Source: Patescibacteria group bacterium (GTDB lineage Bacteria; Patescibacteriota; Saccharimonadia; Saccharimonadales; UBA4665). Taken from it: a stretch of DNA of 64,000 nt. This document shows positions 51,357 through 57,749 of the stretch, piece by piece (position 1 is the stretch's first letter; each line of letters starts with the position of its first letter). The notes beneath the pieces were generated by a model. The model was not told the origin of the DNA. It worked only from the letters and a program-made list of their open reading frames with translations, and ran no database searches. The DNA is taken from positions 186,001-250,000 of the forward strand of contig JARXKN010000001.1 of assembly GCA_030271625.1 (NCBI GenBank). The letters are read 5' to 3'. The position numbers were made by a program, and so were the translations under genes.

Positions 51357-52463
51357 ATGGCTAAGCGTGATTATTATGAGGTTTTAGGCGTTAGCAAATC
51401 GGCTAGCGCTGATGAGGTTAAGAAAGCCTTCCGCAAGGCTGCTATTGAACACCATCCTGATCGCGGCGGTGATGAAGCCAAGTTCAAAGAAATCAATGAA
51501 GCCTATGAAGTTTTAAAAGACCCGGCTAAAAAACAGCGTTATGATCAGTTCGGCCATGCCGGCGTCGGCGGTAGCGGCGGCGGTGGTTACGGGGGCTTTG
51601 AAGGCTTTGGTGGTCAAGGGCAGAACGTTAACTTTGATTTTGGTGACCTTGGTCTGGGCGATATTTTCAGCAGTTTCTTCGGTGGTGGTAACGGTGGGGG
51701 CGGTCATTCGCAGCGCCAAGCCCGAGGTCGTGATATGGAGGCGCGAGTTGAAATTAGCTTCGAAGAAGCCATCTTTGGTACTGAATCCAAACTAAATTTG
51801 CACATGGAAGATAGCTGCGATCACTGTAAGGGCTCAACGGTCGAACCAGGCTATGAGCTTAAAACCTGTGAAACTTGTAAGGGCTCGGGACAGGTCGTGA
51901 CTGTGGCGCGCACTATTTTTGGTAATATCCAACAGGCAGCCGTCTGTCCAACTTGTCACGGACGAGGCAAGGTGCCAGAAAAAGTCTGTAGCGTTTGTCG
52001 CGGTAAGGGAACCCAAGTCAAAAAACAGGATATTGCCCTCAAGATTCCGGCTGGTATCGACGACGGTGCTACTATCCGCTTACGCGAGCACGGTGAAGCC
52101 ATTGCCAATGGACCGAAGGGTGATTTATATGTCAATATCCGCGTCAAGCCACACAAACAATTTACCCGCGAAGGTGATTTAATCCTTAGCAGCGAGCGTA
52201 TTAGTATGGTTGAGGCCGCTTTGGGTACGGAAATAGAAGTTGCAACCGTTGATGGCCTAGTGCGCATGAAAGTACCAGCTGGTACGCAAAGTGGTAGTGA
52301 CTTTAAGTTGAGTAACCACGGTGTACCGCACCTAAAGGGTACGACCCGTGGGGCACAGATTGTAACTATTATTGTCGAGACGCCAACTAAATTAAGTAAG
52401 CGACAACAAGAAATCTTAAAGGAGTACGCTGAAGCTAGCGGCAAAAAGCCCTTCTGGAGCTAG
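51357..52463 (+). CDS. dnaJ: Co-chaperone DnaJ (Hsp40)
   Basis: 368 residues. J-domain with HPD motif (IEHHPDRGG, about 31-39), Gly/Phe-rich region (about 70-115), zinc-binding CxxCxGxG-type repeats ([32 protein letters not shown]; the first is slightly altered) and two C-terminal substrate domains. It delivers substrates to DnaK. The stop interleaves with that of the convergent GGDEF gene by 4 bases. Confidence 0.97.
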
Positions 52464-53191
52464 CTGACCTTGGCAGCAACGTCGATTATCATGTCGTCAA
52501 TGTGGACGACGACGTTTTTGCCAGTCTGCTTAGCATTTGCTAGCGCGGCATCAGCAATACTAACGGTCTCTTCTAGTGAGCGAGAATAGTCTACTTCGCC
52601 GACACCAATGCTGACGGAAGTAGTGGTTCCCCTACTAATATCCTTGCGGATTTTCTCGGCAATATCGTAGGCTCGTTTTTTTGGCGTCCGGGGCAGTAAA
52701 ATTACAAACTCATCCCCTCCCCAGCGGGCAACAACGTCGTTGCTCCGGGTGTTAGCCGCCATAAAGGCTCCCACAACCTGCAGCAAGTCGTCACCCGCCT
52801 GATGGCCGAGTTGTTCGTTAACCGATTTAAAATCATCAAGATCTAAAACTAGCATTTGGGCGCTAGGGGGTTGTTGGTTACTACGACGCTCGGTTACAAC
52901 TTTAGCTTGCAGTAGACTTTGATAGGCCCGCTCGGCACCACGCCGGTTAAAGAGCCCGGTTAATGGGTCGGTATTACTCAGCTGCAACATCCGCTCGCTA
53001 TCGGCCCGCAGGTTGCTCTTATCAGCCTCTTGACTGACTACTACATCAACAAGTGGGTTTTGATCTACCAATAATATCCGGCTAGCATTAATACCGAGCG
53101 CGTGGGCGCGCCAGTAGTGCAGATAATGTTCATTGTGGATGTCGTATGACTCCGGATTACTGGCTGGCGGGAACAGATATGAATTAGACAT
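52460..53191 (-). CDS. GGDEF-domain diguanylate cyclase
   Basis: 243 residues. A short N-terminal region precedes the catalytic domain, with [31 protein letters not shown] and [14 protein letters not shown]: the GGDEF motif (158-162) is exact. RSND (149-152) lies five residues before it, so the RxxD product-inhibition site is present. It would make c-di-GMP in the cytoplasm. The N-terminal 65 residues have no known sensor domain. Leaderless start on the minus strand. Confidence 0.95.
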
Positions 53192-53437: not shown

Positions 53438-54475
53438 ATGACTAACGCCGTCTGCTTTGCTTATCAGCCTGAACATTTACCGCCGGATACTCGTTTACCA
53501 GATAGAGCTGAGCTGTTTGCGAAATTACGCGCCCTCGACCTTGATCCATTTGTGTCACTCAATGCCGAGCAAGCTTTTGGGCCCGACACGGTGCAGGCGA
53601 TTGGACTAGACCCAAAAATTAAGCGTGACCACCGACAAATTGCATTTGAGGGGTTGGGGCTGATAGTTAACCGGCTAAATCGTTCAATTAAAAGTGAGCT
53701 GCTAGCCGTTACAGAATTGCCAACGCTGATAAATGAGAATGCTGTCCGAAAAATTGCCTGGCATAAGGAAGTGGCCGCCGAGCAAGTCTTAGCCCCACTC
53801 GATCTAGGTATTCCTACGGCGCTGGTAACCGAACCAGAAGATGTCGATCGCTTTCTAGAACAATATACTGCCCCACGCTTTATACTCAAGCCCCGTCATG
53901 GAAACTTTGGTGCTGGCACGCATCTGCTCAGTCGTCATAGAACACTCAAATTCTACAGCCAACACCCAGATCTGCTAGCTAAGCATGTCATCCAGCCGGC
54001 TTATAACTTTAACCGGCCATTTCCAACCAGTATTAAAGCGCTTAACCGTCAAACTGCTGAAACCTTCGATGCCTGCAATCGGTCCGGTATTACCAAGGAA
54101 CTGCGCATGTATGCCTTTCTATCACCAACCGGCGTAACGACGCACCCGGCGGCTCGGGCCGTAAAGCCGTCGGCTGACGGCAAGCAACTACACAGTCGGT
54201 GGTTTTTTGTCGACCCCGAGTCGATCCCTAACGAACTGGTAACGCAAACCGAGCGGGTAGTGCAAAGAACGGCCCAACTAACGGCTTCACGAGCGGTGTA
54301 TGCGGCCGTTGACTACGGCTACGGCACTATTAGTGGTGTTTCGCCTAGCTGGCAGATTATCGAGCTCAATGCGCTCTCGCCCGGCATGATTAATTATAAA
54401 GATAATCAATTAGTGGCTGACCGGCTTCAAACTATGTTTAGTCAACAGATTAGAGACACTATCGACGCCCGCTAA
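53438..54475 (+). CDS. ATP-grasp ligase, first gene of an amide-ligase cluster
   Basis: 345 residues. A Rossmann-like N-terminal part and the ATP-grasp fold: RFILKPRHGNFGAGTHLL (about 147-164) contains the flexible Gly loop and Lys, a middle part with the TKELRMYAFL strand, and IIELNALSPGM (about 307-317) supplies the Mg ligands. ATP-grasp enzymes activate a carboxylate as acyl phosphate and form an amide. The specific substrate is unknown. Placed upstream of a Mur-type ligase, it resembles the order of the two catalytic modules in cyanophycin synthetase. Confidence 0.82.
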   Translation: MTNAVCFAYQPEHLPPDTRLPDRAELFAKLRALDLDPFVSLNAEQAFGPDTVQAIGLDPKIKRDHRQIAFEGLGLIVNRLNRSIKSELLAVTELPTLINENAVRKIAWHKEVAAEQVLAPLDLGIPTALVTEPEDVDRFLEQYTAPRFILKPRHGNFGAGTHLLSRHRTLKFYSQHPDLLAKHVIQPAYNFNRPFPTSIKALNRQTAETFDACNRSGITKELRMYAFLSPTGVTTHPAARAVKPSADGKQLHSRWFFVDPESIPNELVTQTERVVQRTAQLTASRAVYAAVDYGYGTISGVSPSWQIIELNALSPGMINYKDNQLVADRLQTMFSQQIRDTIDAR

Positions 54476-54518
54476 ACGCCTAAGCTTAAAAACCCTAGTA
54501 AAATATATAAAAATATGC

Positions 54519-54524
54519 TATAAT
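54519..54524 (+). promoter_or_regulatory. -10 box (TATAAT) before the Mur-type ligase gene
   Basis: It lies 27 bases before ATG 54552 in a 76-base gap, so the last three genes can be transcribed separately from the first ATP-grasp gene. Confidence 0.5.
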
Positions 54525-54551
54525 AAAACAAATAATTTAGCAAAGGTGGTT

Positions 54552-55835
54552 ATGCAGCATATTCCCAAAATTTCCGTTACGGGCACCAAAGGTAAAACCA
54601 CCGTTGTTAACGTTGTCGCCAGTGTACTGGAACGACTCAATCACGACGTTTTAAAGGTCGATACCACTGGTCATTATGTTAATGGTGAACAGCGGAGCAG
54701 CCTAGAAGACTCTAAAGTTATTTGGAATCTGGTACCCAGTGTCTGTCCGGGCCGCTATTTATATGAATTTAAAACCGATGCACAACTAGCTGCCAGCCAG
54801 CACCCCGTCGCAGTGTTGGAGTGTGCTCTCGGTTGCAGCGCCTCGGCTGGCCTTGGTTACCGCGAACATGAAGTTGGCGTGTTTTTAAACGTTTTAGAAG
54901 ATCATCTCGGATCGAGCCCCCGCCTCAAAACCAAAGCCGATATTGCCACCGCTAAAGATTTTGTCTTCCGCCGCATTAAACAAGCTGGCTATGCTGTCTT
55001 CAACGCCGACGATAGCTACGTTACCAGTGTGCTCAATAAAATCCCGGCCGAACGAGCGGCTAGCTTATTGCCGTGTGGCTTAGATTTTAGTGCTTTTGAT
55101 GTAGCCGGCCATATGGCAGCTGGCGGCAAAGTCTTGACTGTAACCGGAACCGAAGTAGTACTACGAAGTCAGACTGCCGACACGGTCTTGTTTGATTTGG
55201 CACAGATTCCGTGGGCCTTTAGCGGCGCCTTCAAGCCCTCAGTCTATAACTTGCTGCTAGCTACTGGCGCGTTATACGGCTATTACAAAGGTGAGCTACC
55301 AAGTAATTTCCGCTCGGTCATGGAGGCCACCCGCTTAGATCAGTTTGGTGGGCGCCTCACCTTGTTGCAGGCTGAAAGCGGCACCGTAATTTTAGCTGAT
55401 TATGCCCATGAAAAGTTTTCACTCAGCCTAGTCGGTGACTTGGCCCGGACCTTGGTTAAGTCAGGCGGCAAAGTAATTGGTGTTGTCCGTCTAGCCTATG
55501 ACCGGACACCAGAATTAATTGCTGAAACCGGTGCGGCGATTGCTAGTCATTACGACCAGTTTGTTGTCTACGACAAAATTGATGGTTATTTCGTCAAAGG
55601 TGAATCTAAGCCAGGCCGCCGCTTTCAGAAAGTGGAAGGTCAGGTCTCGACCGCTTTAACCGCAGCGATTGCTAGCGTCAATCCTCAGGTGGTGCGAATC
55701 GTGCGAGAAGATGAAGCCCTGGCTGAAGCTGCCCAGCAGGCTGGCCCTAACGACTGTGTGGTGGTAATCGTTAACGACGACATCAAACAGTCAATTAGTT
55801 TTATCCAAGACATGTTTAAGGCGAGGTTTATCTAA
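54552..55835 (+). CDS. Mur-ligase family protein without N-terminal UDP-binding domain
   Basis: 427 residues from ATG 54552, with AAAGG 5 bases upstream; an in-frame GTG at 54546 is less likely. It begins directly with the P-loop TGTKGKTT (10-17), then VLECALGCSASAGL, FLNVLEDHLG, FNADDSYV, the KPSVYNLLLATGALYGY motif and a C-terminal ILADYAHEKFSL. This is the central and C-terminal Mur ligase domains, as in FolC, CapB or the Mur half of cyanophycin synthetase. It forms an amide through an acyl phosphate. The next gene overlaps by 1 base. Confidence 0.88.
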   Translation: MQHIPKISVTGTKGKTTVVNVVASVLERLNHDVLKVDTTGHYVNGEQRSSLEDSKVIWNLVPSVCPGRYLYEFKTDAQLAASQHPVAVLECALGCSASAGLGYREHEVGVFLNVLEDHLGSSPRLKTKADIATAKDFVFRRIKQAGYAVFNADDSYVTSVLNKIPAERAASLLPCGLDFSAFDVAGHMAAGGKVLTVTGTEVVLRSQTADTVLFDLAQIPWAFSGAFKPSVYNLLLATGALYGYYKGELPSNFRSVMEATRLDQFGGRLTLLQAESGTVILADYAHEKFSLSLVGDLARTLVKSGGKVIGVVRLAYDRTPELIAETGAAIASHYDQFVVYDKIDGYFVKGESKPGRRFQKVEGQVSTALTAAIASVNPQVVRIVREDEALAEAAQQAGPNDCVVVIVNDDIKQSISFIQDMFKARFI

Positions 55836-56275
55836 TGACTGCCCCAATTATCGTTGGCAGCTTCGAGTTGGTTAGCTTCCCAGATCTGGGTATAGCTGAG
55901 GTAGTTGCCAAGGTTGATACCGGCGCCTACTCCGGGACGGTTCACGCCACCAATATTACCGAAACAACTGACCCGAGTGGCGACCAGATTTTAGAGTTTT
56001 ACCCGCTTGGCAAAGCCGAGCTCAAAACACACAGCCGCGACTATACGTCAAAGCAAATTCGAAGCTCCAATGGGCAACTGGAAACGCGCTTTGTTATAAA
56101 CACGAAAATCATACTGCAAGGCCAAGAGTATCCAATTAGTATCAGCCTAGCCGATCGCAGTGCTATGATGAAGTCTGTATTAATTGGCCGCCAATTTCTT
56201 CGTCGTCAACGCATAATAGTTGACGTTCGGCAGGGCACACAGTACGCTTACGCAGTAAAGGAAGCTGAATTATGA
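55835..56275 (+). CDS. RimB-like retropepsin-fold protease (PF05618 type)
   Basis: 146 residues. AKVDTGAYSGTVHATN (25-40) is an aspartic protease-type DTGA flap and VLIGRQFLRRQRI is the second strand, matching the 'ATP-dependent zinc protease' family whose members act as RimK partners. In this family the proteins are compact dimers that cleave peptides built by ATP-grasp ligases. Starts at the last base of the Mur ligase and ends 4 bases into rimK, so the three genes are translationally coupled. Confidence 0.86.
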   Translation: MTAPIIVGSFELVSFPDLGIAEVVAKVDTGAYSGTVHATNITETTDPSGDQILEFYPLGKAELKTHSRDYTSKQIRSSNGQLETRFVINTKIILQGQEYPISISLADRSAMMKSVLIGRQFLRRQRIIVDVRQGTQYAYAVKEAEL

Positions 56276-57174
56276 ACATCGTTATTTTATCTAAAGGACC
56301 CGGCAACTACTCAACCCGCCGCTTAAAAGAAGAGGCGCTAGCTCGTGGACATAACGTCCGCGTCGTTAACTATGCCAAATGTTACGTTACGCTTGAGGCT
56401 AGCAATCCGGTTATTCACTACCTCGGCGAAGAAGTTCGTGATGTTGATGTCATTATCCCGCGGATTGCTTCTAACTTAACCAAGTATGGCTCAGCGATGG
56501 TCCGTCAGTTCGAAATGCAAAACGTCTTTACTACCACCAGTTCGATTGCCATTGTTCGTTCTCGAGACAAGCTGCGCAGTATGCAGCTATTAGCTAAATC
56601 TGGCGTTGGCATTCCTAAAACTGTCTTTGCTCGTGAAACGTCTGATTTTGAAGGAGTCTTGGAGCAGGTCGGTGGCGCGCCAGTTATTATTAAGGTGGCG
56701 CGCGGCACACACGGTAACGGTGTCGTACTAGCCGAAACCCGCAAAGCCGCCTTGGCGGTAATGCAGGCCTTTTACGTCGAACACGTAAACTTTTTGGTGC
56801 AGGAATTTATTCACGAAAGTGCTGGCGTTGATATCAGGGCCTTTGTAGTCAACGGTAAAGTTGTTGCTAGCATGTTGCGACAAAGTCTCGATGATGACTT
56901 CCGTTCTAACTTACATCAGGGCGGTGAAGGTATCCCCGTTAAATTAACTGATGAAGAACGAAAGACGGCCCAAAAAGCCGCCAAAGCTATGGGCCTGCCA
57001 ATTTGTGGCGTTGACCTTATGCGCTCAGCTCGGGGCCCATTGGTACTGGAAGTTAATTCTAGCCCTGGCTTTGGTATCGAGAAAGTTACTAATCACAATG
57101 TGGCGGCCAAGATTTTAGATTACATTGAGCAGAACGCCAAAGCCCGACGCAAAAAAGACAAAGTCGGCGCCTAG
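56272..57174 (+). CDS. rimK: RimK-type alpha-L-glutamate ligase
   Basis: 300 residues, the same length as E. coli RimK, which adds Glu residues to the C-terminus of ribosomal protein S6. Many segments match: VIPRIASNLTKYGSAMVRQFEM, RSRDKLRSMQLLAKSGVGIPKT, GGAPVIIKVARGTHGNGVVLAE (ATP-grasp loop), the VDIRAFVVNGKVVASMLRQS segment and GPLVLEVNSSPGFGIEKVT (Mg ligands). The target here may be a ribosomal protein or a product of the neighbouring ligases. Confidence 0.93.
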   Translation: MNIVILSKGPGNYSTRRLKEEALARGHNVRVVNYAKCYVTLEASNPVIHYLGEEVRDVDVIIPRIASNLTKYGSAMVRQFEMQNVFTTTSSIAIVRSRDKLRSMQLLAKSGVGIPKTVFARETSDFEGVLEQVGGAPVIIKVARGTHGNGVVLAETRKAALAVMQAFYVEHVNFLVQEFIHESAGVDIRAFVVNGKVVASMLRQSLDDDFRSNLHQGGEGIPVKLTDEERKTAQKAAKAMGLPICGVDLMRSARGPLVLEVNSSPGFGIEKVTNHNVAAKILDYIEQNAKARRKKDKVGA

Positions 57175-57224: not shown

Positions 57225-57749
57225 GTGACCCCTACGATAATTCTCGGCGCAATTGTTGCTGTTCCGCTCGCCTTACTGATGATTCTCCGCATTAACGCGG
57301 CGTTGGTATTCCTGAGCTTGTGCCTAGGCGACGTGTTAGTGCAATTCGTGGCTGATGATGCCAACTCGTTTATAAGTCTGCTCCAGAGCACCCACGCCAC
57401 GCAAGCCACCGATACAGTTGCCACCGGCAGCAACTTTATTCGGCTAGTACTCCTGCTCCTACCCGTGCTGTTAACGGCCATCTTTATGATTAAAACTGTT
57501 AAAGGCGCTAAGCTGTTATTAAACATTTTGCCGGCAGCCGGAGTTGGTCTGCTGGGAGGGTTGCTGGTTGTGCCGCTCTTAAGTCCGGGCTTATCGACTA
57601 ATATTATTCAGTCTAGCTTGTGGTTACAGGTTACCAAAGCCCAAAACTTAATTGTCGGCAGTAGCGCCATGGTCTGTCTGTTAGTATTGTGGCTGCAACG
57701 CCCCAAAGCCGGCGGTGGCTCAGAAAAGCACAGCAAACACCACGGTTGA
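57225..57749 (+). CDS. Hypothetical membrane protein (174 aa)
   Basis: 174 residues, starting with GTG and a leaderless -10 box. Hydrophobic segments at about 5-20, 24-44, 71-90, 98-119 and 142-158; it is a polytopic protein with a CvpA-like general look, but no exact family match. The tail is polar (PKAGGGSEKHSKHHG). No function can be given. Confidence 0.65.
   Translation: MTPTIILGAIVAVPLALLMILRINAALVFLSLCLGDVLVQFVADDANSFISLLQSTHATQATDTVATGSNFIRLVLLLLPVLLTAIFMIKTVKGAKLLLNILPAAGVGLLGGLLVVPLLSPGLSTNIIQSSLWLQVTKAQNLIVGSSAMVCLLVLWLQRPKAGGGSEKHSKHHG

Follow-up and report, generated by a model that had tools for sequence, protein, structure and literature searches.

What does a saccharibacterium do with two amide ligases encoded directly ahead of RimB and RimK, and is the arrangement a peculiarity of one genome? 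The question arises from four consecutive genes in the window, the 64,000-nucleotide stretch analysed here. The cluster is not an isolated novelty; it contains the RimB-RimK core of an operon that is conserved in most Saccharibacteria. We favor, with confidence that is about evenly balanced, a Rim-type ribosome-tailing operon equipped with accessory tail-modifying ligases.

Gene organization

The cluster lies downstream of DnaJ (51357..52463, forward strand), which forms the upstream border of a variable slot and is syntenic at most RimBK loci, and of a GGDEF diguanylate cyclase gene on the reverse strand (52460..53191). All on the forward strand, it comprises a divergent accessory ATP-grasp ligase (53438..54475; 345 aa), an accessory Mur-type ligase (54552..55835; 427 aa from its ATG), a RimB-like retropepsin protease (55835..56275; 146 aa), and a RimK alpha-L-glutamate ligase of the S6 type (56272..57174; 300 aa). 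A conserved small membrane protein (MP; 57225..57749, forward strand) follows RimK; the DUF192 gene that elsewhere usually separates the two is missing from the window. The initial annotation of this DNA had described four genes in a row, the last three overlapping by 1-4 bases, and this description holds: all four open reading frames are intact, Mur overlaps RimB by 1 base, and RimB overlaps RimK by 4.

The Mur frame can also open at a GTG (54546; 429 aa), but the ATG at 54552, preceded by the Shine-Dalgarno-like AAAGGTGG, is the best start. The gap between ATP-grasp and Mur is 76 bases when counted to the ATG and 70 to the GTG. It had also been said to carry a TATAAT box. The hexamer is there, at 54519, but a separate promoter before Mur is rejected because no acceptable -35 partner was found for it and because the window contains 25 copies of TATAAT or its complement.

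RimB and RimK

The RimK and Rimk_N Pfam domains score well over cut-off in the window RimK. Against the S6-glutamate ligase model PRK10446 (E 1.6e-93) it reaches 313 bits versus a 331-bit cut-off, slightly under equivalog level, and it matches the Pseudomonas RimK structure (PDB 7qyr) at E 1e-90. When compared with the contact residues listed for Pseudomonas RimK (PMC10092738), all six ATP contacts are identical (K141, E178, I180, F210, S212, and N213), as are five of seven poly-glutamate contacts (S7, S14, R64, R189, and N262); the other two differ, R8 being replaced by K and S68 by N. RimB is a single-domain retropepsin with a catalytic DTGA that matches the NCBIfam RimB model at E 6e-21 (75 bits, under the curated 200-bit cut-off) and PDB 9g59 at E 4e-7. 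Both family assignments had been made in the initial annotation and are borne out by these matches. RimK is probably the writer of a glutamate tail and RimB its trimmer.

Among known systems, RimABK, which polyglutamylates S6 (RpsF) in Pseudomonas, likewise has adjacent RimB and RimK, an S6-type RimK active site, and a c-di-GMP enzyme encoded nearby. It differs in that the window lacks the RimA/EAL phosphodiesterase and instead has a GGDEF cyclase together with the extra ATP-grasp and Mur ligases. RimBK hybrid proteins (PMC11957791) have a counterpart in the RimB-RimK fusion of one relative (G086), whereas the window genes are separate and some relatives also fuse RimB to other ATP-grasps. Fusion loci include L195:2487-3911 and L026:6954-8342 (a RimB-RimK fusion and another ATP-grasp fused to RimB). 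The RloABC operon of Pseudomonas aeruginosa (PMC12239564) also joins a retropepsin with an ATP-grasp; RloA, however, is secreted and its operon encodes a transmembrane inactive transglutaminase, while the window RimB is nearer to cytosolic RimB.

A conserved operon with a variable slot

Genes of relatives were called mechanically, as open reading frames matched to seeds. Among 100 sampled genomes of the window's order, RimB is present in 76 and RimK in 82, and at 75 loci the two are direct neighbors, separated by a median of 2 bp. The combination had been thought unusual for a reduced genome; for RimB and RimK this does not stand, since the pair is near-universal in the order. A literature search returned no paper linking Saccharibacteria with RimK and, for Saccharibacteria with ATP-grasp, only archaeal protein fusions.

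The conserved block reads HrcA-GrpE-DnaK-DnaJ-slot-RimB-RimK-DUF192-MP-ComEC-YebC-RuvC. RimB directly follows DnaJ in 14 genomes, so the remaining slot genes are a variable insert, and the window's ATP-grasp and Mur are one version of its content. At least one extra amide ligase accompanies 37 of 80 RimK loci; the kinds are RimK-like, CphA-G-like, LAL-like, biotin-carboxylase-like, the window's ATP-grasp type, and Mur. The 94 slot open reading frames include, among the matches listed, 28 members of the RimK ATP-grasp family, 11 MATCAP, 7 TTL, and 4 Mur, whereas, among the matches listed for the 75 flank frames, every ATP-grasp family stays below two members. Slots elsewhere also hold unrelated genes (sortase, CAP, methyltransferase, AcrB, and glycosyltransferase).

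The full order ATP-grasp-Mur-RimB-RimK is shared with a second genome, G039, from another family. Mur itself is rare (13 of 393 genomes) and lies within the RimB/RimK operon in 11 of the 13 that have it. Together, these two observations argue that the cluster is not a product of chance. The initial annotation had staked its idea of a system on conserved gene order among relatives and on related domains in predicted structures; the order is conserved, and structure prediction did not reveal unrelated domains.

The accessory ligases

By sequence, the window ATP-grasp falls below Pfam and NCBIfam cut-offs, with YheCD at E 0.013. Its predicted structure, fairly confident across residues about 100-320, matches ATP-grasp ligases such as ArgX (3vpb, E 2.6e-8) and RimK (5zct, E 7e-7), and the fold matches also include Ddl and graspetide ligases. 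Homologues occupy the same locus in G039, G002, and G710.

The Mur-type ligase consists of middle and C domains only, the middle domain beginning at residue 11; the N-terminal UDP-binding domain is absent, as first described. It keeps the P-loop TGTKGKTT and the invariant K137. Its best NCBIfam match is the C-half of cyanophycin synthetase (E 4e-51), and it is closest to the Arg-adding M domain of that enzyme. Identity as a peptidoglycan Mur ligase (MurC-F) is rejected on the missing UDP-binding domain and the closer resemblance to CphA.

The first two genes had been read as cyanophycin synthetase split in two. The analogy survives for Mur, which corresponds to the M domain of CphA1, and for relatives G097, G354, and G528, which encode a CphA-type, G-domain-like ATP-grasp within the same operon. 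It fails for the window ATP-grasp, which has no NCBIfam match and whose fold is not specifically CphA-like, so its assignment as a G domain is unsupported. The locus further differs from CphA1 in that its genes are separate, no N domain is seen, and the ligases are coupled to RimB and RimK; Mur stands alone rather than in a single N-G-M polypeptide and scores 174 bits versus the 850-bit cyanophycin synthetase cut-off.

Mur occupies three operon positions: before RimB, before the CphA-type ATP-grasp, and, in two genomes, between RimB and RimK. In several genomes the Mur and RimB frames share 1-4 bases. Mur is absent from a further five genomes in the window's genus. The divergence of Mur tracks that of RimK (rho 0.72, tree structure uncorrected), pointing to an association that is old and has been lost repeatedly. 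Genomes with Mur but no adjacent RimB are G526 (matching locus L028) and G678. Mur-family genes away from RimB are found at L028:6004-7287, L323:7874-9157, and L328:8156-9439, with a release-factor-like neighbor in L028 and L323. A scan of genome contigs with the TGTKGKTT pattern recovered mostly distant Mur ligases (20-30% identity) and one new close relative. A plasmid search returned mainly annotated cyanophycin synthetases; a Deinococcus Mur from that search (L331) has no Rim neighbors.

c-di-GMP and MATCAP neighbors

The window GGDEF protein (Pfam E 7.7e-35) retains its GGDEF motif and RxxD inhibitory site and is the sole GGDEF match in its genome. A GGDEF gene is present at 20 of 80 RimK loci, 8 of these 20 neighboring proteins being without the motif; counted by genome, GGDEF appears in 57 of 100 relatives. 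None of the 100 genomes, the window genome included, yielded an EAL phosphodiesterase, so RimA has no counterpart there. In Pseudomonas, c-di-GMP stimulates RimK, and the same work postulates both a "reset" protease and a diguanylate cyclase feeding RimK, naming neither gene (PMC7343187). By analogy, the neighboring GGDEF protein, a parallel that the initial annotation had missed along with the variability of the insert, may point to such control and is a candidate for the cyclase.

MATCAP-family genes, found in 22 of 100 genomes, could supply S6 tailing with its reset protease. They lie near RimB/RimK in 15 of the 22, across ten families, for which a naive binomial gives ~1e-25, a value that is overstated because the genomes are related; viewed by locus, a MATCAP carboxypeptidase accompanies 15 of 80 RimK genes. 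Genomes with MATCAP beside RimB/RimK include G069, G017, G060, G035, and G010 (among loci L163, L176, L171, L201, and L187). The animal MATCAP/TMCP enzymes cut glutamates off tubulin tails (PMC10499314). The window genome encodes no MATCAP member.

Proposed function

Ribosomal protein S6, which the initial annotation named only as one candidate acceptor, would be the natural target. In the window genome its C-terminus reads ...DKEESEE. S6 ends in EE in 26 of 51 genomes with RimK versus 3 of 16 without (Fisher p 0.04, phylogeny ignored), and exceptions with RimK and another S6 ending include G097, G072, and G076; the association is suggestive only.

The initial annotation had proposed a pathway that adds and removes a tail, and the conserved order of a writing and trimming module with extra ligases supports it. 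The accessory ATP-grasp and Mur may, at about even confidence, act on the same tail as RimK and RimB. Under such a model, they would extend or branch the S6 tail: Mur would couple a second amino acid to tail side-chain carboxyls, as in cyanophycin, the ATP-grasp would extend or cap the chain, and c-di-GMP from the GGDEF protein would tune RimK as in Pseudomonas. If so, ribosomal C-terminal tailing would take more forms than plain polyglutamylation and would occur in nearly all members of a streamlined, parasitic bacterial group, its tails may carry more than plain glutamate, and MATCAP and GGDEF become candidates for the two Pseudomonas gaps. More tentatively, we can imagine a "tail code" akin in logic to the tubulin code, in which swappable ligases (RimK, CphA-like, LAL-like, and Mur) write the ribosomal tail, RimB and MATCAP-family carboxypeptidases erase it, and c-di-GMP exerts control.

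Alternatively, the product could be a free peptide or short polymer, derived from poly-alpha-glutamate or cyanophycin-like, with RimK making the backbone, Mur and ATP-grasp decorating it, RimB degrading it, and S6 a secondary target. RimB does stimulate RimK synthesis of free poly-alpha-glutamate (PMC11957791), and both the M-domain affinity of Mur and its pairing with true CphA-type ATP-grasps in relatives fit such a polymer. We nevertheless consider this rather unlikely: RimK belongs with the S6 ligases and, being near-universal, has a much broader distribution than Mur, the C-terminus of S6 resembles that of E. coli, and the N-terminal anchoring domain of CphA is not seen in the operon.

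It is less likely still that the DnaJ-RimB interval is simply a tolerant insertion site, its ATP-grasp and Mur being cargo with a metabolite of their own, unrelated to RimB and RimK. Unrelated slot genes and the patchiness of Mur even inside a genus would be expected of such a site, yet amide ligases and tail peptidases are strongly enriched in the slot relative to the flanks, Mur overlaps RimB or sits between RimB and RimK, ATP-grasps are fused to RimB, and Mur diverges in step with RimK. Least probable, and by a wide measure improbable, is modification of a cell-wall or host-derived peptide precursor by the Mur/ATP-grasp pair; the Mur fold and a distant relationship to MurE are in keeping with it, but the UDP-binding domain is absent, CphA is closer than MurE, and the locus contains no wall genes.

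Other observations at related loci

A LAL-type ATP-grasp also precedes a stand-alone Mur in a different Patescibacteria genome (L099:1285-3838), a second such pair, with no RimBK in the stretch seen. A class-I glutamine amidotransferase occupies the slot of several genomes (L228:5334-5897, L324:8357-8923) and in G474 lies directly ahead of Mur-RimB-RimK. Lastly, a conserved all-helical 310-aa protein with a confident model (pLDDT 90) has no PDB match and, in the one member scanned, no Pfam match; six genomes encode it next to RimB, in the opposite orientation (L179:4979-5920, L232:3961-4902, L188:2371-3321, L225:3981-4913, L207:4013-4951, and L226:4989-5909), and it carries invariant SEHRNVL and LDNK motifs.
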